Part shown: one piece after another, positions 6,413 through 46,226 of the stretch
Layout: every line of letters begins with the position of its first letter
Position numbering within the stretch: the first letter of the stretch is position 1
Translations under genes and position numbers: made by a program
Notes under the pieces: generated by a model
Told to the model about the DNA's origin: nothing
Seen by the model: only the letters and a program-made list of their open reading frames with translations
Databases searched by the model: none
Assembly: GCA_030424545.1 (NCBI GenBank)
Contig: JAUHWL010000017.1
Span: 1-56,950, forward strand
From: Bacteroidia bacterium
GTDB lineage: Bacteria; Bacteroidota; Bacteroidia; Flavobacteriales; Schleiferiaceae
DNA length: 56,950 bases
Direction of reading: 5' to 3'

Positions 6413-7072
6413 CTAATTGAATATGCTATATGAATACGTAAACCGTAAACCGTAATACGCATCATTAGGATTGGGTGTGTCTTTTAAATTAAAACCCTCT
6501 AGATTAGAAGCACCCGTGATGTTCCAATGTAAATTTACTCCTATAATGGAGTGATTAGAAACACGCCATTTCCAACCGAACGCAGTTTGAAAATTATAAG
6601 TTGAAAATGTACCCCAATACAATTCATATTCTGGTGGATAGCTGGCATTTGTATTTAATTCTGGCGAATAAAATGTCATACCGAATCCTGCTTTTACGTA
6701 TGGAGTGTTTTGGTTTCTTTTAAAAAACTTTCCAAACTTTTTAAAATTTAATTCAATTACCACATTTGCCTGGGCAATATTGGTATTTACAATGTAGTTT
6801 CTTTCAGGATTATTATGGTTTTTATCGTCTGCAAATAGTTTGCCCCAACCTGCTTCTACTCCTAAATTAAATATTGGATTAAAGTTTCTTTTTAATGACA
6901 AGCCAAATTCCGGCCTCATCTCATTTATCCAAGTGCCTAAATCACCTTCTTCTGTAATTTCACCTGAATAATTTAGACCACCTACGTAGCCGCCAACTTC
7001 CCAAAATGCAGTAGATTTTTGCGCAACAACTGCTAGCGGCAAAAAAAAGAGTATAAATATTATTTGTTTCAT
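6413..7072 (-). CDS. Outer-membrane beta-barrel protein (DUF6089-like)
   Basis: The protein has 219 residues with a clear signal peptide (MKQIIFILFFLPLAVVAQ). It continues with alternating beta-strand sequence rich in Gly and aromatics (GGYVGGLNYSGEI, GVEAGWGKLF, YVKAGFGMTFYSP) and ends in an aromatic-rich strand, YGLRFTYSYSIF. This is the profile of small eight-stranded outer-membrane barrels of the PorT/DUF6089 type in Bacteroidota. It lies 16 bases downstream of yaaA on the same strand. No enzymatic motif is seen, and a structural role in the outer membrane is the safest reading. Confidence 0.7.
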   Translation of the reverse strand: MKQIIFILFFLPLAVVAQKSTAFWEVGGYVGGLNYSGEITEEGDLGTWINEMRPEFGLSLKRNFNPIFNLGVEAGWGKLFADDKNHNNPERNYIVNTNIAQANVVIELNFKKFGKFFKRNQNTPYVKAGFGMTFYSPELNTNASYPPEYELYWGTFSTYNFQTAFGWKWRVSNHSIIGVNLHWNITGASNLEGFNLKDTPNPNDAYYGLRFTYSYSIFN

Positions 7073-7088
7073 CTAATCCAATTTTCCT

Positions 7089-7853
7089 TTAGTGGTCGCG
7101 CAAAAATACAAGTTTATCATCTTCGGAAAGAGGTTGACTAAATGTGTAATTCTCTAGGCTAAATAGCTTTAATTTTTCAACATCCTCAATCTGATATTCT
7201 AGAATATATCTAGCCATCATCCCCCTTGCTTTTTTAGCAAAAAAGCTCATCACTTTATACTCTCCTTTTGCATTTCTGTCTTTAAACTCAAATTCAATTA
7301 CGCGGTTATTCAGCTTTTTAAAATCTATTGCTTTGGCGTATTCTTTACTTGCCAAATTAAAAATTAACTCCTTTTTAAATTCTTTTTCTAGCAAGGCCGT
7401 TATTTTTTTTCGCCAAAACTCATACAGGTTTTTGCTGCGGCCAATATTTATTTTGGTGCCCATTTCTAAGCGGTATGGCTCTATTAAATCCAAGGGTTTT
7501 AGCAGGCCATACAATCCGCTTAAAATACGCAGATGGTCTTGCGCATATTGCAAGGTTTTTTCTTTCATGGTTTCTGCCTCAAGTCCTAAATACGCATCGC
7601 CACTAAACATAAATATGGCCTTTTTGTATTCGGGTTTATCAATCATTGTATTCCAGAGCTGGTTGCGCTGCTGATTTAATCCAGCTAAATCTGCACTAAT
7701 ACCTTGCAGTGCCATTAATTTTTTAGCGCTTAACCGCTTTGTTGATTTGTTAACCTTTACGGCTTCATCAAAAAAATAAGGAGTGTTACTGGGTAATAAA
7801 TTTTCTTTATCAACTTCGTTTAGCCTTTTGGCTGGCGATAACAATATGAGCAT
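7089..7853 (-). CDS. yaaA: Peroxide stress protein YaaA (DUF328/UPF0246)
   Basis: YaaA proteins limit damage from hydrogen peroxide, in E. coli by lowering free iron, and bind DNA. The 254-residue protein matches the family along its length: the start MLILLSPAKRLNE, FSGDAYLGLEA, ILSGLYGLLKPLDLIEPYRLEMG, LASKEYAKAI and KKARGMMARYI. I place the start at 7853 because MLILLSPAK is the canonical N-terminus; the frame is open for 15 more codons upstream but those residues do not belong to the family. It faces the lipoprotein operon at 8189 across a divergent spacer. Confidence 0.93.
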   Translation of the reverse strand: MLILLSPAKRLNEVDKENLLPSNTPYFFDEAVKVNKSTKRLSAKKLMALQGISADLAGLNQQRNQLWNTMIDKPEYKKAIFMFSGDAYLGLEAETMKEKTLQYAQDHLRILSGLYGLLKPLDLIEPYRLEMGTKINIGRSKNLYEFWRKKITALLEKEFKKELIFNLASKEYAKAIDFKKLNNRVIEFEFKDRNAKGEYKVMSFFAKKARGMMARYILEYQIEDVEKLKLFSLENYTFSQPLSEDDKLVFLRDH

Positions 7854-8188
7854 AGTTGTAAAACGTAAAAATTCCTTCTGAATTTTCAGAAGGCTCAAAT
7901 GTATTTTATTTCAAAAACTTTTCAATTTTTTACCGCTCACATTGTGGCACTTATTTTTATCACATCGCAAATAATAGATTAGAACTTAACCTTTATGATA
8001 TATGGTGTATGAAAGCTGGCCTATTATAAAAATGTGGGTGAGGATAAAAATTTATATGAGTACGAAGTGTATAGCTTGTAAAAATTCTGGTAGGATACTT
8101 TCATTAAATATTTGCAAAAGTTTTATTCTATACAATAAATCCATTTGGCACTTTATTTGTTTTGTGGAATGCTAAATTTGGCAAGCTT
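7854..8188. other. 335-bp divergent spacer
   Basis: No coding gene is supported. The right end holds the -24/-12 promoter at 8146-8161. A good TAnnTTTG-like box (TAAATTTG, 8173-8180) also lies here but without a -33 TTTG at a suitable distance. No promoter was recognised for yaaA. Confidence 0.5.
8146..8161 (+). promoter_or_regulatory. Putative sigma-54 (-24/-12) promoter of the lipoprotein operon
   Basis: TGGCAC, 5 bases, then TTGTT reproduces the sigma-54 spacing and differs from the TGGCACG-N4-TTGCW consensus at only two positions. It has the same TGGCAC-N5-TTGTT form as the stronger site at 28010. The predicted transcription start near 8172 leaves a 17-base leader before the ATG at 8189. 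Confidence 0.55.
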
Positions 8189-9592
8189 ATGAAAAATAAA
8201 ATACAGATACTCTTTTTAGTTGTTGCCATTGGGTTTGGATTGGCCAATTGCTCTGGAAGTAAATCTTATTATAAAAAAGGAAAGAAGCTAGAGAAAAACG
8301 GCCTTACCATAGAAGCTGCTAATTTTTATATTGAATCATTACGCAGAAAAAAATCGAACGAAGACGCCATTATTGCATTAAAAGGTTTAGGGCAACGTGT
8401 GTTAGACGAAAAGTATGCAACCTTTTATAAATTTTATGCCGATGAAAGGTACAAGAATGCCGTGTATGCTTTTATTGATGCCGAAGAGTTTAAAAGCAAA
8501 GCAGCAGCCGTTGGCGTAATTTTATCTTCTTCTCCCTATTATATAGATTATTTTAAAGAATCTAGAGACATCTACGTTACCTCTTTATATGATGATGCTC
8601 AGGAATACTTAAACAACGAGGCATTTACTGATGCCGAAAGAAATTTAAACGAAATTAAAAAGCTAGACCCTAGCTATAAAAACGTAAATGCCCTAAGCGA
8701 TTTTGCTTTTATTGAACCAAAATATAGACAAGGGTTACGTGCTTATGATGCCCAAGAATACAGAAAGGCATACTATCTGTTTCAAGAAATAAACAAGCGA
8801 GCCAAAGAAGGCTATAAAGAAAGCATAGACTATCAGGCACTTGCTCTAGAAAGCGCAACCTATACCATTGCCGTATTAGGGATAGAAGACAAACAAAACT
8901 CAACTTTGGCAACCGGCATAAGCGGTGGCATTATTAGCTCGGTTAAAAGCTTAAACGATCCTTTTTTAAGGCTGATAGACAGAACTACAAGCACATTGGT
9001 AAGAGAGGAGCAGTTTATAAACATGAGCACAGAATCTAGCCAAAGTCAATTTATACAAACCAGCGAAAACCTTGGCTCTGACGCTATACTTATTGGCAAA
9101 ATTGTAAGTGCAAAAAGTTACAATGGAAACCTAATTAAAAGTAGCCGAACGGGTTGGATTGGAAAAGAAGTTAGATACATAGATCCTGTAACAAAAGATA
9201 AAAAAACGCGCATTACCTACAGCAAAGTTTACTATTACGAATACGAACAAACCAATTGGGTAAACTGCACGTTTCAGTACCAACTAATATCTACCAAAAC
9301 TGGCGAAGTTTTGCTGAGCGACATAGTTGAGACCAAAAAAGAAGATCAAATCCATTATGCCACTTTTAATGGCGATACTAAATTGCTAATACCGGGGTTT
9401 TGGAAAAACCAGTACAGAAACGATCAGGCCGACAGGCGCTACGATAGCTATTCAAACAAGCGCGCTTTAGATGCATTGTTACGATCTAGAACAACCATAA
9501 AATCGCTTAGCGAACTGCAAAACAACGTTTTTGATGAATTGGGCGTACGCGTAGCAACAAATATTGGAGCCTTTAATCCAGAAAAAAAATGA
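8189..9592 (+). CDS. Lipoprotein with N-terminal helical repeats and CsgG/FlgO-like C-terminal domain
   Basis: The 467-residue product starts MKNKIQILFLVVAIGFG with a lipobox LANC (Cys21), so it is lipid-anchored. I chose the ATG at 8189 because it gives this signal peptide; an earlier in-frame ATG at 8162 would overlap the promoter. Residues 30-230 are helical and TPR-like (YKKGKKLEKNGLTIEAANFY, AQEYLNNEAFTDAERNLNEI). From about 235 the segment TIAVLGIEDKQNS starts a mixed alpha/beta domain (GSDAILIGKIVSAKSY, FQYQLISTKTGEVLLSD) resembling CsgG/TolB-N/FlgO domains. The next gene overlaps by 4 bases and encodes an LPP20-type lipoprotein. A joint role at the outer membrane is inferred; the exact function is unknown. 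Confidence 0.6.
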   Translation: MKNKIQILFLVVAIGFGLANCSGSKSYYKKGKKLEKNGLTIEAANFYIESLRRKKSNEDAIIALKGLGQRVLDEKYATFYKFYADERYKNAVYAFIDAEEFKSKAAAVGVILSSSPYYIDYFKESRDIYVTSLYDDAQEYLNNEAFTDAERNLNEIKKLDPSYKNVNALSDFAFIEPKYRQGLRAYDAQEYRKAYYLFQEINKRAKEGYKESIDYQALALESATYTIAVLGIEDKQNSTLATGISGGIISSVKSLNDPFLRLIDRTTSTLVREEQFINMSTESSQSQFIQTSENLGSDAILIGKIVSAKSYNGNLIKSSRTGWIGKEVRYIDPVTKDKKTRITYSKVYYYEYEQTNWVNCTFQYQLISTKTGEVLLSDIVETKKEDQIHYATFNGDTKLLIPGFWKNQYRNDQADRRYDSYSNKRALDALLRSRTTIKSLSELQNNVFDELGVRVATNIGAFNPEKK

Positions 9593-36630: not shown

Positions 36631-37071
36631 ATGCTAGAAATACACATATTTGATACCATTAACAAACCAACACTTCATGAAAAAAATGAAGTTGCCGATT
36701 TTTTATTCGAGCATTTAGAACAATATGGAGACCCAAAACAACACATCTTAAAAGCCATCGACTTCTCCATTAAAGAAATTAGCTCTTTTGGTGGTTTTAC
36801 ATTAAAACTTACTGAAGACGGCAAAATAAAAGGTGTTGTTGTCATCAATCAAACAGGCATGGGCGGTTACATTCCTGAAAACATATTGGTTTACATTGCC
36901 ATTCATAAAGACCACCGTGGCGAGGGGCTGGGCAAAAAACTCATGCAAAAAGCCATAGAACACAGCAAAGGCGATATTGCCCTACACGTTGAAGCCAACA
37001 ATCCAGCAAAATTTCTTTACGAAAAATTGGGTTTTACAAATCCATATTTAGAAATGAGGCTGAAAAAATAA
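36631..37071 (+). CDS. GNAT N-acetyltransferase, first gene of the amino acid/racemase operon
   Basis: The 146-residue protein starts at the ATG at 36631 (MLEIHIFDT); a TTG 9 codons earlier is less likely. Its acetyl-CoA loop is IHKDHRGEGLGKKLMQKAIEH and the final strand-helix LHVEANNPAKFLYEKLGF is typical of GNATs. It ends 3 bases before the symporter gene and heads a tightly packed five-gene operon with an amidohydrolase and two amino acid racemases. An N-acetyltransferase for a small amine or amino acid would fit that company, but the substrate is inferred only. Confidence 0.85.
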   Translation: MLEIHIFDTINKPTLHEKNEVADFLFEHLEQYGDPKQHILKAIDFSIKEISSFGGFTLKLTEDGKIKGVVVINQTGMGGYIPENILVYIAIHKDHRGEGLGKKLMQKAIEHSKGDIALHVEANNPAKFLYEKLGFTNPYLEMRLKK

Positions 37072-37074
37072 TTC

Positions 37075-38526
37075 ATGGACATTCATATAATCGATGTATC
37101 GATTTTTGTTTTTTACCTCGTTTTTATGCTTGGCGTGGGGTTTTACTTTCTCCGCAAAAACAAATCAAAAGAAGATTATTTTGTTGGCGGCCGCAACATG
37201 TCAGCAGGGCACATTGGCCTTTCTGTAGTTGCCACCGATGTTGGAGGCGGCTTTTCTATAGGTCTTGGCGGTTTAGGCTTTGCCATGGGTATTTCGGGTA
37301 GTTGGATGCTTTTTACAGGCCTGCTTGGCGCATGGCTAAGTGCAGTTTTGCTTATTCCAAAAATCTACCCAATTGCCGCAAAACACAATTTTTTAACCTT
37401 TCCGCAAACACTCTCTTTTCACTACAATAAAAAAGTAGCATTAGTAGCCGGCATCATTTCTTTTATAGGATATGTAGGGTTTACAAGCTCACAAATTCTT
37501 GCTGGGGCCAAGTTGGCTTCGGCAACCTTTCCGGCAATCACCATAACAAACGCGGCCTTACTTATGGGCGTTATTGCAGTGGTTTACACCGTAATTGGCG
37601 GAATAAAAGCGGTAATCTATACCGACACCATTCAGTGGATTATCCTCATGGTGGGGTTAATTTTTATCGGCTTGCCCATTGGCTATTACCACATTGGCGG
37701 ATGGCAGGCACTGCAAAGCTATGTGCCTACTAGTTTTACTTCGCTTCAGAACATCAGCTTTATACAACTCTTTAATTGGGCTATAACCATAGTGCCCATA
37801 TGGTTTGTAGGCATGACGCTTTACCAACGCATTTATGCCTGCAAAGATGTAAAAACAGCCAAAAAAGCATGGCTCATTGCCGGTGTGTTTGAGTGGCCCG
37901 TAATGGCTTTTATGGGAGTTGCACTTGGATTGTTTTCTAGAGTTGCGTTTGAGCAAGGGTTGTTTACCTCATTAGGTTTTGCACCAGGTACTGCTATGGA
38001 TGCGGAGTTGGGTTTACCTCTGTTACTCAGCAATATTTTACCCGTTGGATTGATGGGCCTCATGATGTCTGCATATTTTTCGGCCATTATGAGTACAGCA
38101 GATAGCTGCTTAATGGCCGCCAGCGGAAATTTAATTACCGATGTATTGGAGCATTTTAAAACAGCCAAAGAAAACCACGCCATTAGAAACTCCCAACTTA
38201 TAACTTTAGCCATTGGTGCTGTAGCCATAGCGTTAGCAACTGTTATAACAAGCGTTTTAGACCTTATGCTCTACTCCTACGCCTTTATGGTTTCTGGCTT
38301 GCTCATCCCGGTGTTGGGCACTTTATTTTATAAAAACCCAAGTTCGTTGGCTGCCATGGTGTCGATGATTCTTGGTGGATCAACAACATTGGTCTTAATC
38401 CTACTCAATTTAAATTTACCTTTTGGCCTTGATGAAAACTTTTTCGGCATCAGTCTTTCGGCCATTACATTTTTGCTCATTCAAAACACCACAAAAACAA
38501 ATGCTAAATCCGTTGCAATTAAATAA
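37075..38526 (+). CDS. Sodium:solute symporter (SSS family)
   Basis: The 483-residue membrane protein has about thirteen helices. It shows the SSS (LeuT-fold) features: an opening helix then KNKSKEDYFVGGRNMSAGHIG, VVATDVGGGFSIG in helix 1, FIGYVGFTSSQILAGAK, and YTVIGGIKAVIYTDTIQW. SSS members import sugars, amino acids or other organic solutes with Na+. In this operon, followed by an M20 amidohydrolase and two amino acid racemases, uptake of an amino acid or acyl-amino acid is the best inference. Its last 26 bases overlap the amidohydrolase start. Confidence 0.9.
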   Translation: MDIHIIDVSIFVFYLVFMLGVGFYFLRKNKSKEDYFVGGRNMSAGHIGLSVVATDVGGGFSIGLGGLGFAMGISGSWMLFTGLLGAWLSAVLLIPKIYPIAAKHNFLTFPQTLSFHYNKKVALVAGIISFIGYVGFTSSQILAGAKLASATFPAITITNAALLMGVIAVVYTVIGGIKAVIYTDTIQWIILMVGLIFIGLPIGYYHIGGWQALQSYVPTSFTSLQNISFIQLFNWAITIVPIWFVGMTLYQRIYACKDVKTAKKAWLIAGVFEWPVMAFMGVALGLFSRVAFEQGLFTSLGFAPGTAMDAELGLPLLLSNILPVGLMGLMMSAYFSAIMSTADSCLMAASGNLITDVLEHFKTAKENHAIRNSQLITLAIGAVAIALATVITSVLDLMLYSYAFMVSGLLIPVLGTLFYKNPSSLAAMVSMILGGSTTLVLILLNLNLPFGLDENFFGISLSAITFLLIQNTTKTNAKSVAIK

Positions 38527-39640
38527 GCTCACAGAAATAAGACAAGAATTTCACGCGCATCCCGAAGTTTCTGAACATGAATTTGAAACCCAAAAAAGGA
38601 TTTTAGATTTATTAAAAAATACGGGTCAAACCAACGTAGCTAAAATTGGCAATACAGGCGTACTGGTAACTTTTAATAGCAACAAGCCGGGGCCAACAGT
38701 TATGATTAGAGGTGATATAGATGCCTTGCCCATTGAAGAAATAAACACCTTTGAACATAAATCTACAGTTAAGGGGATATCGCACAAATGCGGCCATGAC
38801 GGCCACACTACCATATTAATTGGCTTGGCACAACTGCTTACCGAAAACCCCATTGCTACGGGAAAAGTGCTGTTATTGTTTCAGCCAGCCGAAGAAAATG
38901 GCATGGGGGCAGAAGCTGTTTTAGCAGATGAACAATTTGCTGCACATACCATAGATTATGCATTTGCTTTACACAATTTACCCGGCTACCCTACCCACCA
39001 AATTGTTGTAAAAGACCATGAGTTTACGGGCAACGTTAAAAGCATTATTTTAAACATGGAAGGAAAAACAGCGCATGCTGCCGAACCCGAAAAGGGCTAC
39101 AACCCTAGCATGGCCATCGCTGAGATTTTTGACTTTGCAAACAATATTACCCACAACAAACCAGCAGAAGACAACTTCTTTTTGATGACCCCCGTTTATG
39201 CCACTTTGGGAGATCTGGCCTATGGCATTTCTGCAGGATATGGTGAAGTGCATTTTACCATTCGCAGTTGGGATACCGATTTAATGGCACAACGCAGCGA
39301 AGAGATCATTGCATTTATGGAGAAAACCTGCAAAAAACACCGTCTTAAACCAAACATTTCTTGGACACAAGTTTTTCATGCGAACATCAACCACCCGAAA
39401 GCCGTTAACTTTATACGAAGCGCGGCAGTAAATTGTAATTTAACATTGACGGAAAGAGAATATCCTTTTAGGTGGGGCGAAGATTTCGGCCTGTTTACCC
39501 AACAAATTAAAGGGGCCATGTTTGGCCTAGGGGCGGGTATAAACACCCCAGCATTGCACAATCCAGATTACGATTATCCTGATGAAATTACCGAAACAGG
39601 AATCCGTATGTTTTATCAAATCATCAAACAAATTGTATAA
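38501..39640 (+). CDS. M20-family amidohydrolase (N-acyl-amino acid deacylase type)
   Basis: From the ATG at 38501, inside the end of the symporter gene, the protein has 379 residues, the normal length of M20D enzymes. The dinuclear metal ligands are visible: C97 and H99 (CGHDGHT), E131/E132 (FQPAEEN) and H158 (LHNLPG). The insertion or dimer domain begins near VKDHEFTGNVKSI. Such enzymes hydrolyse N-acyl-amino acids, hippurate or peptide-like amides. Coupled to a symporter upstream and racemases downstream, it may release an amino acid from an acyl or peptide conjugate. A longer start inside the symporter at 38423 is rejected. Confidence 0.9.
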   Translation: MLNPLQLNKLTEIRQEFHAHPEVSEHEFETQKRILDLLKNTGQTNVAKIGNTGVLVTFNSNKPGPTVMIRGDIDALPIEEINTFEHKSTVKGISHKCGHDGHTTILIGLAQLLTENPIATGKVLLLFQPAEENGMGAEAVLADEQFAAHTIDYAFALHNLPGYPTHQIVVKDHEFTGNVKSIILNMEGKTAHAAEPEKGYNPSMAIAEIFDFANNITHNKPAEDNFFLMTPVYATLGDLAYGISAGYGEVHFTIRSWDTDLMAQRSEEIIAFMEKTCKKHRLKPNISWTQVFHANINHPKAVNFIRSAAVNCNLTLTEREYPFRWGEDFGLFTQQIKGAMFGLGAGINTPALHNPDYDYPDEITETGIRMFYQIIKQIV

Positions 39641-39642
39641 TC

Positions 39643-40797
39643 GTGTTTCAAACTTCGTACATAGAGTTATCTGAACAAGCCGTAAAAAACAACATTGATT
39701 TTATTAAACGTTTTTTAGGCGAAGGTGTTACGTTTTCTAGCGTTGTAAAAGGAAATGCTTACGGCCATGGCATTGCGCATTATTGTCCGTTAGCATATAA
39801 ATATGGCATAAATCACTTTAGTGTTTTTAGTGCAGGAGAAGCGCTTAACGTTACCAAAGCCTTGCCCGAGAAAGATTTTACGCTGATGATTATGGGCCAA
39901 ATAGAAAACAGTGAATTAGACTGGGCCATAGAAAACAATGTTGAGTTTTACGTTTTTGAGCAAAACAGGTTGGATGCCGCCATTTCTTATGCGCAAAAAT
40001 TGGGTAAAAAAGCACGCATCCACATAGACATAGAAACTGGCATGAACAGAACCGGTTTTGCCCAAAAAGAAATTACTTCTGCCCTTAAAAAGATAGAAGC
40101 AAATTTAGATTTTGTAGAGGTTAAGGGCATTTGCACGCATTTTGCAGGAGCGGAAAGTATTGCCAATTACAAGCGGGTAAAAGACCAATTTAATCGGTTT
40201 AAGCGTTTTCAAACCAAAGTAAAAAACTATCCATGGTTGCAGGCCAAAAGCCACATTGCTAGCTCATCGGCAACGCTGCGCTACCCTAACTCCCAACTAG
40301 ACATGGTACGCATCGGTATACTACAGTTTGGATTTTTTCCTACCCAAGAAATCTTTGTGCACTATGCTACCAAATACAAAACGGGTGAAAATCCGTTAAA
40401 ACCCATTTTGAGTTGGAAAACCAAAGTAATGGACGTGAAAACGGTAAAGGCCGGAGAGTTTGTAGGATATGGCACATCATATTTTACCAACCGTACCACA
40501 AAAATTGCATTACTCCCGGTGGGCTACTCGTTTGGCTACAGCCGCTCCTTAAGCAACCAAGGCAAAGTGCTTATAAATGGTGCTCGTTTTGATGTTGTAG
40601 GTACGGTAAACATGAGCATGTTGGCCGTAGATGTATCTACAGACGAGTCAATTAAAAAAGGTGATGAAGTGGTATTAATAGGAAGCCAAGGAAATCAAGA
40701 ACTCTCGGTTTCATCGTTTAGCGATTTTAGTCAACTCATCAACTATGAATTATTAACCCGATTACCCCAAGACATTCCTAGAATAATTACAAAATAG
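39643..40797 (+). CDS. alr: Alanine racemase-like PLP enzyme with an unusual active-site segment
   Basis: The 384-residue protein has the alanine racemase fold: PLP lysine K36 in SSVVKGNAYGHG, then a TIM barrel and a C-terminal beta domain. The catalytic Tyr segment reads VGYSFGYSR where most enzymes have GYxDGY. The usual VxMDQ segment reads VNMSMLAVD, so the Asp after Met is replaced by Ser. These changes suggest altered substrate preference, judged by eye without an alignment. It starts with GTG at 39643, 2 bases after the amidohydrolase stop, and is followed 2 bases later by a second racemase. It could be a broad-specificity racemase and need not be the cell-wall Alr. Confidence 0.85.
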   Translation: MFQTSYIELSEQAVKNNIDFIKRFLGEGVTFSSVVKGNAYGHGIAHYCPLAYKYGINHFSVFSAGEALNVTKALPEKDFTLMIMGQIENSELDWAIENNVEFYVFEQNRLDAAISYAQKLGKKARIHIDIETGMNRTGFAQKEITSALKKIEANLDFVEVKGICTHFAGAESIANYKRVKDQFNRFKRFQTKVKNYPWLQAKSHIASSSATLRYPNSQLDMVRIGILQFGFFPTQEIFVHYATKYKTGENPLKPILSWKTKVMDVKTVKAGEFVGYGTSYFTNRTTKIALLPVGYSFGYSRSLSNQGKVLINGARFDVVGTVNMSMLAVDVSTDESIKKGDEVVLIGSQGNQELSVSSFSDFSQLINYELLTRLPQDIPRIITK

Positions 40798-40799
40798 TT

Positions 40800-41897
40800 A
40801 TGGCAGAATTAATCATTCAAACAAAAAAAATACAAGAAAACATTAAGTTTTTAAGCAATTACTTCAATAAACAAAACATCCATTGGAGCTTAATAACCAA
40901 AGTTTTTTCTGGCGATAAAGAATTTTTAAAGCATGTACTTACGCCAGATACTATTGAAAAAATAGATTCTGTAGGCGACTCTAGAATTACAAGCTTAAAA
41001 AACTTAAAAGAGGTAAACCCCAACATGCGCACCATCTACATAAAGCCACCGGCAAAAATTTATGCAGATGATTTGGTAAAGTATGCAGATGTATCGTTAA
41101 ATAGCTCTTTCACCACCATAAAGGCGCTAGACGAAGCAGCAAAAAAAGCTGGCAAAACGCACCAAATCATTATAATGATAGAGCTTGGCGAGTTACGAGA
41201 AGGTGTAAATCGCGCAGATATTATGTCGTTTTACGAGAAAGTTTTTAAACTCCCCCACATAGAGGTTATTGGTATTGGTTCTAACTTGGGGTGCATGTAC
41301 GGTGTAGAACCCAGCTACGATAAGTTGCTACAATTAACCCTATATAAAGAGTTGATTTCGGCCAAATTCAAAAAAGAACTAAAATATATTTCTGGCGGAA
41401 CTTCAATTACACTTCCGCTGATAGAAATGGGCACTGTGCCTAAAGAAGTAAATCATTTTCGCATTGGCGAAGCCGCCTTTTTTGGTTTAAGTCCGCTTGA
41501 GAATAAGCGTTTTAAAACCTTGCACACAGATACGTTTGAGTTTACCGCAAACATTATTGAGCTTGAAGAGAAAAAGCTTGTTCCCGAAGGCATTATTAGT
41601 GATGCCAACATTGGCCATACGGTAGATTTTGACCATGTAGATATTAGCGAAACCTCTGTAAAAGCCATTTTAGATTTTGGTTTGCTAGATGTTGCTAAAG
41701 AAGATATAGAATCTAGCGACCCCGATTTATCTTTTGTTGGAATTACATCTGACATGCTTGTGGTAGACCTAGGCACCAACCGAACAAAAGACGGAAAGAA
41801 AAAGTATAAAATTGGAGATCAGCTATATTTTACACCCAACTACATGGGTGTGGCGCGTTTGTTAAACTCTAAGTTTATCGCCAAGCGGTTTGAGTAG
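40800..41897 (+). CDS. Alanine/ornithine racemase-family PLP enzyme (Orr/YhfX-like)
   Basis: This 365-residue protein belongs to the second racemase branch with a fold-III barrel. The PLP lysine is K34 in WSLITKVFSGD, followed by DSVGDSRITSLKNL and the substrate/PLP phosphate region IGIGSNLGCMYG and YISGGTSITLPL. Ornithine racemase of Clostridium is the characterised relative. It is the last gene of the five-gene operon and lies 2 bases after the alr-like gene. Tandem racemases of two families behind a symporter and a deacylase are unusual. The actual substrate is unknown. Confidence 0.82.
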   Translation: MAELIIQTKKIQENIKFLSNYFNKQNIHWSLITKVFSGDKEFLKHVLTPDTIEKIDSVGDSRITSLKNLKEVNPNMRTIYIKPPAKIYADDLVKYADVSLNSSFTTIKALDEAAKKAGKTHQIIIMIELGELREGVNRADIMSFYEKVFKLPHIEVIGIGSNLGCMYGVEPSYDKLLQLTLYKELISAKFKKELKYISGGTSITLPLIEMGTVPKEVNHFRIGEAAFFGLSPLENKRFKTLHTDTFEFTANIIELEEKKLVPEGIISDANIGHTVDFDHVDISETSVKAILDFGLLDVAKEDIESSDPDLSFVGITSDMLVVDLGTNRTKDGKKKYKIGDQLYFTPNYMGVARLLNSKFIAKRFE

Positions 41898-42079: not shown

Positions 42080-42538
42080 ATGAAATTTAGAAAAGCTACA
42101 AGAAATGATGTTCCTATAATTGTGGAAATGCTTGCTGATGACGAACTCGGAAAAACTAGAGAAAATTTTCAACTACCATTACCAGCGGAATATCTTAATG
42201 CTTTTGAAAATATTATTGCTGACCAAAATCAAGAACTTATTGTAATTGAAAATGAAACTTCTGAAGTTATCGGAACCTTACAATTATCATTTATTCAATA
42301 CCTCACATATCGTGGCGGAATTAGGGCACAAATAGAAGCCGTGAGAATTAGAAAAGACCAAAGAGGACTTGGAATTGGAAAAACAATGTTTGAATGGGCT
42401 ATTGAAAGAGCCAAAAAAAGAAATGCACATTTATTACAACTTACCACGGACAAAAAAAGACCAAAGGCCATCAAATTCTATGAAGATTTGGGATTTAAAG
42501 CCACGCATGAGGGCATGAAAATGCATTTTAAAAAGTGA
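42080..42538 (+). CDS. GNAT acetyltransferase in an accessory region
   Basis: The 152-residue GNAT has the acetyl-CoA loop RIRKDQRGLGIGKTMFEWAIERA near residues 92-112, preceded by IEAV and followed by LLQLTTDKKRPKAIKFYEDLGF. This pattern occurs in many amino-acid or antibiotic-like small-molecule acetyltransferases (PhnO/YpeA type). It is AT-rich and flanked on both sides by hairpin-rich, gene-free spacers, which suggests a mobile cassette-like unit. The substrate is not known. Confidence 0.88.
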   Translation: MKFRKATRNDVPIIVEMLADDELGKTRENFQLPLPAEYLNAFENIIADQNQELIVIENETSEVIGTLQLSFIQYLTYRGGIRAQIEAVRIRKDQRGLGIGKTMFEWAIERAKKRNAHLLQLTTDKKRPKAIKFYEDLGFKATHEGMKMHFKK

Positions 42539-44423: not shown

Positions 44424-46226
44424 TTGATTTCTGCTTCTTACATATTTGACAAAACCATTGCTGTTCTCCCTTTCGTGAATATGAGTGCGAGTGAGGAAAA
44501 TGAATATTTCAGTGATGGTATTACCGAAGAAATAATCAATGCTTTGGCGAAGATTGATGGTTTGAAAGTTACTTCTAGAACTTCATCATTCTCATTTAAA
44601 GGAACGAACAAAACCATAGCAGAAATAGCCAAACAACTAAATGTTTCTATCATTTTAGAGGGCAGCGTTCGACTATCGGGGACATCTGCTAGAATTACAA
44701 TTCAATTGATTGAAGCTGAAAACGATTTTCATTTTTGGTCAGAAACGTTCGATCGTGATCTAAAAGATGTTTTTGTTGTTCAAGATGAAATAAGTTTGAT
44801 TGTTGCTGATAAACTCAGGGAGCATCTCGGTCACTTTGAACTGGGCGATCATTTGGTAGACACATACAATGTTCCTTTTTACACCTATAAAAAATACCTT
44901 TGGGGCCGATTTCTTTTAATGAAACTTGATTACGAAAACACATGCAAAGCAATCTCTGTTTTTGAAGAAGTCATTCAGGAGTCACCAGATTTTCCACTAC
45001 CCTACTTAGATATAAACCAAGGATATACTTACATGGGAACCATGGGGATTATATCGGCCTACGAAGGGTTTACCAAAGCACAGCCATTCTTACAGAAAGC
45101 CATTGAATTAAAAGAAGATTTACCTGAAACACAATTAAACTTGGCATGGATTTCCTGCTGGCAAAAATGGGATTTGAAGCAAGCTTATATTCATCTAAAC
45201 AATGCCATTAGCTTAAGGCCTTCAGACAATATGTATCTAACAATGGCCAATTTTCTTACGGTAGAAGGTAAACTTGAATTGGCTATGAAATACTTGGATA
45301 AAGCCTTAGAATTATCTCCTTTTTCTTCTACAAACGTCAATTACAAAGGGTTCCTGTATTACTTGATGGAGCAATACGACAAGGCGATTCCATTTTTCAA
45401 GCAAAGTTTAGATCTTCAACCTGAATTACCTTTTCCAGTCGTTTATATGGGTACTTGCCACCTATTATCCGGACGACATGACGAAGGCCTAGCCTACTTC
45501 AACAATCTTGTTGAAGACAACAATGGCTATCTAGCAAAATTAGGAGGCACAACCATTGCACATGCAATGATGGGCAATACTAGCAAAGCTGAAGAAGGTA
45601 TTTCTATACTAGAATCATATCTTGAAACACCTTCCTCTGGCAATGCATTGAACTTTCTAATTCTTTGCCATGCACAATTAAATAACATAGAACGGGCGCT
45701 AGAATATCTGAATATTGCGAAAGAAAATCATTTTCCTTTGGTCTTATTACTCCCAAGAGAACCGCTTGCGAAACCCTTGCATAGCATACCTGAGTTCAAT
45801 AAGATGATTACCAATATTGTTTCCGAAAACGCTCGGAATGAGGCTTCACGCAAATACAAAAAATCCCTTTTCAGTCATCAAGAATTAAAAAGCTATAAAA
45901 AAAGACTTGAAAATTTAATGAAGGAAGATGAAGTCTTTTTAAACCCAGAGCTTACCTTAAGGTTGCTTGCTGAGTATATGAATCTTCCTGCAAATCATAT
46001 GTCGCAATTGTTAAATGAAGGGTTCCAACAAAATTTTGCAAACTATGTAAATACCTATCGCCTAGAGCACTTCAAAACTAAATTGCAAGATTCTAGCTCT
46101 AGTGACTTAACTCTTCTTGCCTTGGCTTATGACAGTGGCTTTAATTCAAAAACAGTTTTCAACACCTTTTTTAAAAACAAACTCGGTGTTACTCCAAAAG
46201 CATATTGGAATCAACTGAAGAAGTAA
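44424..46226 (+). CDS. TolB-like/TPR/AraC-type transcriptional regulator, 5' end uncertain
   Basis: The 600-residue product has three parts. A TolB-like N-terminal domain covers about 10-130 (IAVLPFVNMSASEENEYFSD, VTSRTSSFSFKGTN). TPR repeats follow (about 150-440, for example AMKYLDKALELSPFSSTNVNYKG). The C-terminal AraC helix-turn-helix covers about 500-600 (LLAEYMNLPANHMSQLLNEG and LALAYDSGFNSKTVFNTFFK). This architecture is common in Bacteroidota as a cytoplasmic regulator. The start is odd: the frame is open to 44376 with no ATG, and TTG at 44424 gives the shortest leader before the TolB domain. It may have lost its original 5' end. The oxidoreductase and hydrolase genes downstream are likely targets. 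Confidence 0.8.
   Translation: MISASYIFDKTIAVLPFVNMSASEENEYFSDGITEEIINALAKIDGLKVTSRTSSFSFKGTNKTIAEIAKQLNVSIILEGSVRLSGTSARITIQLIEAENDFHFWSETFDRDLKDVFVVQDEISLIVADKLREHLGHFELGDHLVDTYNVPFYTYKKYLWGRFLLMKLDYENTCKAISVFEEVIQESPDFPLPYLDINQGYTYMGTMGIISAYEGFTKAQPFLQKAIELKEDLPETQLNLAWISCWQKWDLKQAYIHLNNAISLRPSDNMYLTMANFLTVEGKLELAMKYLDKALELSPFSSTNVNYKGFLYYLMEQYDKAIPFFKQSLDLQPELPFPVVYMGTCHLLSGRHDEGLAYFNNLVEDNNGYLAKLGGTTIAHAMMGNTSKAEEGISILESYLETPSSGNALNFLILCHAQLNNIERALEYLNIAKENHFPLVLLLPREPLAKPLHSIPEFNKMITNIVSENARNEASRKYKKSLFSHQELKSYKKRLENLMKEDEVFLNPELTLRLLAEYMNLPANHMSQLLNEGFQQNFANYVNTYRLEHFKTKLQDSSSSDLTLLALAYDSGFNSKTVFNTFFKNKLGVTPKAYWNQLKK

Follow-up and report, generated by a model that had tools for sequence, protein, structure and literature searches.

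A recurring acetyltransferase–racemase gene set of Bacteroidota with a possible role in amino acid salvage

What could join an N-acetyltransferase, a sodium symporter, an amidohydrolase and two racemases in one compact row of genes? Such a row lies on contig JAUHWL010000017.1 of assembly GCA_030424545.1, from a Bacteroidia bacterium of the Schleiferiaceae (Flavobacteriales); positions 1 to 56,950 of the forward strand, the whole stretch of DNA analysed, are referred to below as the window. Comparison with related loci across the phylum identified the acetyltransferase and one of the racemases as a conserved core that the other three genes join with varying frequency. The five genes, with the pyridoxal phosphate (PLP)-type racemases named ALR and ORR, are:

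36631..37071, + strand: GNAT-family N-acetyltransferase (GNAT), ATG start; core partner of ORR
37075..38526, + strand: sodium:solute symporter (SSF), PutP-like; 3-bp gap after GNAT
38501..39640, + strand: M20 amidohydrolase (M20), ATG start; 26-base overlap with SSF
39643..40797, + strand: ALR, second alanine-racemase-type PLP enzyme, GTG start; 2-bp gap after M20
40800..41897, + strand: ORR, alanine/ornithine racemase-family PLP enzyme, ATG start; 2-bp gap after ALR

This five-gene layout, with gaps of 3, -26, 2 and 2 bp, had been claimed in an earlier reading of the DNA (the original prediction) and was confirmed from the open reading frames (ORFs); the families were confirmed by Pfam and NCBIfam. 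Earlier TTG starts exist for GNAT (36604) and M20 (38423), and the starts used here are chosen, not forced, and agree with those of the original prediction. The Pfam and NCBIfam scans took the longer GNAT and M20 frames, and M20 taken from 38501 gives an identical score.

The tight spacing had been read as a sign of strong co-selection, with conservation of the five-gene order set beforehand as the test. We compared 81 loci, consisting of the stretches around 75 ORR matches and six further contigs; the ORR search found matches in 17 of 60 relatives and in 63 of 395 genomes sampled across the phylum, the window's own genome being included in both samples. Genes were assigned to a block by matching at the DNA level with gaps below 700 bases, and some loci stop at a contig edge, so the counts are lower bounds. 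The ORR block holds GNAT in 76 of the 81 loci, SSF in 51, M20 in 42, ALR in 36 and a gene of M23 type in 24. All five window genes share a single block in 32 of the 81 loci, yet their exact order recurs in one related locus (L011). Elsewhere the order is permuted: GNAT-ORR only in 20 loci, SSF-GNAT-ORR-M23-M20-ALR in 14, SSF-GNAT-M20-ALR-ORR in 11, SSF-GNAT-ORR in eight, and other arrangements besides. Three of the 20 GNAT-ORR loci carry a divergent SSF (~25% identity) 3' of ORR, as if another symporter had replaced the usual one. The order is thus lost, while content and adjacency are kept, and co-selection is strongly borne out by content and co-occurrence but not by order. In L011 itself (6845-9081), ALR and ORR each match as two overlapping or abutting pieces; the frames look shifted in this draft contig, which could be an assembly error.

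The association also holds at the level of whole genomes. Among the 394 other genomes of the phylum, 60 have ORR together with GNAT, two (G211, G400) have only ORR and one (G132) has only GNAT. An ALR of this kind was found, at E up to 1e-60, in 42 genomes, every one of which also encodes ORR and GNAT, even though ALR does not lie within 15 kb of ORR in 15 of them. In most of these 15 the two racemase genes are on different draft contigs, and in G167 and G444 they are far apart on one contig; in seven of the 11 that were searched for M20, it lies directly beside ALR. Fisher tests over the 394 genomes give p ~2e-67 for ORR/GNAT and ~1e-41 for ALR/ORR, values not corrected for relatedness; counted by genus, with the own genome included, ORR is present in 31 of 171, GNAT in 29 and ALR in 20. 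For SSF and M20 we used a chosen subset of 77 genomes, of which 30 have ORR and GNAT (mostly picked because M20-ALR is not beside ORR), 44 have neither and three have one. A close SSF (E up to 1e-60) occurs in 17 of the 30 genomes with both genes versus two of the 44 with neither, and a close M20 (E up to 1e-40) in 16 of 30 versus four of 44. Protein divergence is moreover correlated among four of the five proteins (pairwise r 0.44 to 0.79, with species divergence not corrected for). G132, the sole genome of the 394 with GNAT but without ORR, also has M20 and M23-type matches.

Because of the block counts and the co-occurrence over genomes, GNAT-ORR is the core of the set and M20-ALR an optional module; the symporter is a frequent partner, and M20 is the least specific partner of all. 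We have little doubt that the genes are functionally coupled. Outside this sample, a Persicobacter plasmid stretch holds GNAT and ORR only, and in the neighbourhoods of Orr-family genes in Vibrio and Ilyobacter plasmid records the other four genes were not found. On the conjugative plasmid p1 of Vibrio lentus (L165, 7787-10125), the Orr-family racemase gene overlaps a DUF1611 gene, so that this racemase branch has another partner there.

The original prediction assigned the two racemases to unrelated branches. This does not hold, as both match PF01168 (Ala_racemase_N) and are branches of one family; ALR carries PF00842 (Ala_racemase_C) in addition, whereas ORR has PF01168 only (45.6 bits, over the cutoff). 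The only NCBIfam model matched by ORR is NF040742 (racem_Orr), at 272.1 bits and below its cutoff of 480; a homologue from family f38 (L086) likewise stays below it at 318.4 bits. Lys34, of the PLP-binding type, is invariant in a 15-row alignment. In the ORR tree, a 100/100 branch splits 77 rows from L117 and L118, two candidate Orr copies in genomes lacking this GNAT. A MutL gene adjoins the ORR-type gene in L117, which is reminiscent of the clostridial mutase cluster, where Orr is linked to a D-ornithine mutase. L011 and rows of families f3, f31 and f47 form a group with the window ORR, and all 14 other rows of f1, the family to which the window belongs, fall elsewhere; the window copy was therefore probably acquired or belongs to an old parallel lineage. 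No solved structure similar to ORR by sequence was found at E up to 0.01. An AlphaFold2 (AF2) model built with six sequences (pLDDT 67.7) has D-threonine aldolase-type enzymes and alanine racemases as its best folds (TM ~0.5), and at this modest confidence it informs about the fold only.

ALR matches the alanine racemase model TIGR00492 over its full length and above the cutoff (292.6 bits versus 168), and it retains residues of catalytic type at Lys36, Tyr276, Arg136 and Arg223. The Asp that follows the active-site Met is replaced by Asn in 36 of 38 rows of the ALR family and by Ser in the other two, the window among these, while Met-Asp is kept in the genome's own MurF-Alr and in the three solved chains compared. 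Because the Asp is replaced across the clade, a different substrate range is suggested for ALR. A helix-10 Tyr restricts alanine racemases (PMC3485190); it is missing in ALR and equally in the genome's own MurF-Alr, and was dropped as a marker of specificity because it is not diagnostic. Five PF01168 matches are present in the window genome. One belongs to the MurF-Alr fusion, an 822-residue frame elsewhere in the genome that scores 998 bits against NF008897 (cutoff 804) and whose racemase part is 29% identical to ALR. Given this separate fusion, ALR is an additional racemase and need not supply D-Ala for the cell wall.

M20 exceeds the cutoff of TIGR01891 (223.8 bits versus 153.75). Its H99, D100, H102, E131, E132, H158 and H353 are conserved in at least 95% of 44 rows, the window included, and presumably comprise the metal ligands. 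By sequence, the nearest solved chain is 1ysj (YxeP), and the match to DoeB2, the N2-acetyl-diaminobutanoate deacetylase (NF038260), remains below the cutoff (188.1 bits versus 550). M20 is probably an N-acyl amino acid deacylase. SSF matches PF00474 above threshold (156.5 bits) and falls below the cutoff of the sodium/proline symporter PutP (TIGR02121; 146.7 bits versus 515.5). GNAT, scanned as the frame from 36604, is over the cutoffs of PF00583 (50.5 bits) and PF13508 (51.9 bits). Neither GNAT nor SSF reached a named subfamily, GNAT staying under the cutoff of every NCBIfam model that it touched; a fold search returned general GNATs, with GCN5/PCAF first, and yielded no substrate information.

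How could these activities be connected? PLP racemases require a free alpha-amine, and M20 enzymes of the TIGR01891 type release one. Because of this requirement, ORR and ALR cannot act on alpha-N-acetyl compounds, and GNAT would acetylate either the side-chain amine of a diamino acid or one enantiomer that is thereby removed from the ORR equilibrium. In the route that we envisage, SSF would drive the Na+-coupled uptake of an amino-acid-like solute. ORR would racemise a free amino acid, for which a dibasic compound of the ornithine/lysine type is the likeliest candidate, and GNAT would acetylate an amino group of the same compound, trapping one enantiomer or protecting the side-chain amine. 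Where M20 and ALR are present, as here, the deacylase would free an N-acyl amino acid and ALR would flip the product, so that D- or N-acylated amino acids would end up as usable L-amino acids. Of the readings considered, such salvage, which joins these steps with an importer, is the likeliest. We tentatively propose, at somewhat less than even odds, that the set is a Bacteroidota module for the salvage and stereochemical inversion of free or N-acylated, perhaps dibasic, amino acids, its reactions, direction of flux and substrate class being those we infer from the families. In a more specific form of this proposal, which we consider unlikely, the PLP racemase, representing a new Orr subfamily, and its dedicated GNAT would make up a two-enzyme unit of stereo-inversion: acetylation would trap one enantiomer of the (dibasic) amino acid, the optional M20-ALR module would return the L form, and acetyl-CoA would pay for the one-way passage from D to L. 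The roles in import, amide cleavage, racemisation and acetylation foreseen by the original prediction fit the families, and its route for D- or N-acyl amino acids is plausible.

Clues to the substrate come from the affinity of ORR to Orr and from the surroundings of the cluster. A gene for RocD (ornithine aminotransferase) lies divergently upstream of the cluster in 12 loci of family f38, and a lysine 6-transaminase (LAT) gene is near it in eight, both identified by similarity. In L086, the only locus scored, RocD reaches 673.8 bits (cutoff 378.4) and LAT 686.8 bits (cutoff 520.8), and the window genome likewise encodes a RocD over the cutoff (655.8 bits). We regard a dibasic substrate of the ornithine/lysine type as a lead for ORR. 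The one test of a link to lysine, through LAT, was negative: LAT occurs in 16 of 40 chosen genomes with ORR versus 19 of 40 without.

Several observations weigh against the salvage reading or its dibasic substrate. The ORR score falls short of the Orr cutoff, the RocD/LAT neighbourhood is confined to family f38 and to the opposite strand (20 of 20 genes), and LAT shows no association with ORR in the 40 versus 40 genomes compared and was not found in the window genome. Nine of the 30 core-pair genomes in the chosen subset lack a close SSF, a close M20 and a close ALR alike, so the salvage set is incomplete there and GNAT-ORR can stand alone. M20 correlates least with ORR (r 0.44) and is found in four of the 44 genomes with neither ORR nor GNAT; for both reasons it may serve a side route. 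In addition, GNAT and M20 would undo each other's work in a futile cycle if both used the same enantiomer and the same amine.

Since GNAT-ORR alone is the smallest conserved unit, the main rival to salvage is the biosynthesis of an N-acetylated, possibly D-, diamino acid that serves as a compatible solute or released product. ORR would set the stereochemistry, GNAT cap the side-chain amine, the symporter retrieve leakage, and M20 and ALR recycle the compound. The pair is alone in 20 of the 81 blocks, three of which then have the divergent SSF, and this, together with the nine genomes that hold the bare pair, fits a two-step synthesis better than salvage. In genomes of family f6, moreover, a universal stress protein gene lies 9-14 bp 5' of GNAT-ORR (tested with Pfam in L091, recognised by eye in L115). 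This neighbour is, however, limited to one family, no exporter or osmotic regulator is among the recurring neighbour families that were identified (part of the nine described below), and symporter and deacylase argue at least equally for uptake and use; on balance we lean against solute synthesis. We find it harder still to favour a reading in which a chemically damaged or modified amino acid is broken down by way of an N-acetylated intermediate, in line with the Bacillus scm (yxe) cluster and its sequence of acetylation, processing and deacetylation. The combination of symporter, GNAT and an M20 whose nearest solved relative by sequence is YxeP speaks for it, but a monooxygenase or lyase is not among the five genes, and PLP racemases, inactive on an alpha-N-acetyl intermediate, would be left unexplained; this makes it improbable. 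That unrelated genes were joined by chance or by a single transfer is very improbable. The grouping of the window ORR with other families, apart from all 14 other f1 rows, does suggest transfer, perhaps as a block, but the permuted orders in many families and the 15 genomes that have ALR away from ORR, yet encode ORR and GNAT, contradict such an origin for the set.

Recycling of peptidoglycan or of other peptides containing D-amino acids depends on the M23-type gene. M23 and M20 would hydrolyse the peptides, ALR and ORR racemise the D-amino acids released, and GNAT detoxify the surplus. The gene, of about 200 residues, is present in 29 of the 81 loci (28 by ORFs), on the ORR strand in 26 of the 29, and in G328 and G126 it lies beside M20-ALR or ALR unlinked from ORR. 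The peptidoglycan fragments considered in the original prediction gain indirect support from this neighbour and lose it at the locus itself, as the window cluster has no M23-type gene and the window genome only one weak, generic M23 match (47 bits). Although the three copies tested all exceed the Pfam M23 cutoff, they resemble no peptidoglycan hydrolase model as closely as their best NCBIfam match (115 to 159 bits), the middle part of NF004799, a model with kinase, M23 and aminotransferase domains. The gene also occurs at more than 200 bits in G038 and G053, both without an ORR match, and is hence not exclusive to the cluster; finally, the symporter is an SSF and not a peptide permease. We rate peptidoglycan recycling as rather unlikely, and retain salvage of D- or N-acylated amino acids as our preferred reading.

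The kinase and aminotransferase parts of NF004799-type fusions have a role in hydroxylysine metabolism. A corresponding idea for the cluster, on which a literature search returned nothing relevant, was dropped, as full or near-full forms of NF004799 are not tied to the cluster: G085, G340 and G379 have both, whereas G071, G086, G090 and G093 have such a form but no cluster. On G340:C8 and G379:C13 (L139, L140), the kinase and class III aminotransferase parts are fused without M23; a separate M23 gene of this type is present at another place in the genome. Nine further families are common to at least six loci; of these, searches identified M23 and the aminotransferase group (RocD, LAT), and inspection by eye a TonB-type receptor.

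The limits of the row were examined from both sides. A second GNAT gene at 42080-42538, 182 bp past ORR, and a TraB/GumN-type gene upstream were placed outside the cluster, each being the best match of no ORF in the 81 loci. Beside the cluster, the frame 44424-46226 resembles, by eye only, a TPR-repeat-like protein with an AraC-type C-terminus. A scan for promoters and terminators neither bounded nor split the operon, with 11 promoter-like sites (shuffled mean 15.3) and 10 terminator-like sites (shuffled mean 6.7).

Given that roughly every sixth or seventh species sampled in the phylum has the core pair, and that its genes are almost never apart, the set should define a real pathway, for which current annotation offers only the labels 'alanine racemase', 'acetyltransferase' and 'amidohydrolase'. 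If true, the salvage reading would show how many Bacteroidota use D- or N-acyl amino acids, and it would correct the ornithine and alanine racemase labels that ORR and ALR would receive. A limited search of the open-licence literature, directed at the set, its racemases and some side questions, returned no description of the gene set among the titles listed, in agreement with the original prediction, which knew of no described pathway with this gene set. The enzyme families are known; what seems undescribed is their conserved combination, along with the subfamily of ORR and the signature of ALR.

Individual features nevertheless recall known systems. The Bacillus scm (yxe) cluster, whose transporter is of a different type from that of the window, degrades S-(2-succino)cysteine. 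This pathway comprises an acetyltransferase, a cleavage enzyme and the deacetylase YxeP, now named ScmP, an N-acetylcysteine deacetylase of Bacillus (PMC9706529, PMC12757645). It shares with the present set a dedicated acetyltransferase and deacetylation by the nearest solved relative of M20; in contrast, neither the YxeK monooxygenase nor an S-(2-succino) lyase is among the five window genes, and two racemases are added here. A D-to-L route of Geobacillus, which uses an N-acylamino acid racemase that is not a PLP enzyme, follows a similar logic of acylation, racemisation and L-specific deacylation. There, however, the racemase acts on the N-acyl compound, as stated for the tandem of N-succinylamino acid racemase (NSAR) and L-succinylase in PMC7431475, whereas the two racemases of the window, as PLP enzymes of the PF01168 type, require the amine to be free. 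A study on Flavobacteriales (PMC12838360) lists an automatically annotated ornithine racemase gene and characterises a different racemase, RacX, which would be cofactor-independent judging from its putative catalytic residues. With alanine racemase (TIGR00492) and the lysine and broad-specificity racemases (Lyr, Bar), ALR shares the positions of the catalytic Lys, Tyr and Arg; it departs from alanine racemase where the Met-Asp of the C-terminal domain has become Met-Ser in the window and Met-Asn in most of its relatives. Orr of the clostridial D-ornithine pathway (NF040742), finally, belongs to the same PLP racemase branch as ORR, which aligns over nearly the whole model; yet ORR scores 272 bits against the 480 of the cutoff, stands apart in the tree from the candidate Orr copies L117 and L118, and has GNAT, SSF, M20 and ALR as its partners.

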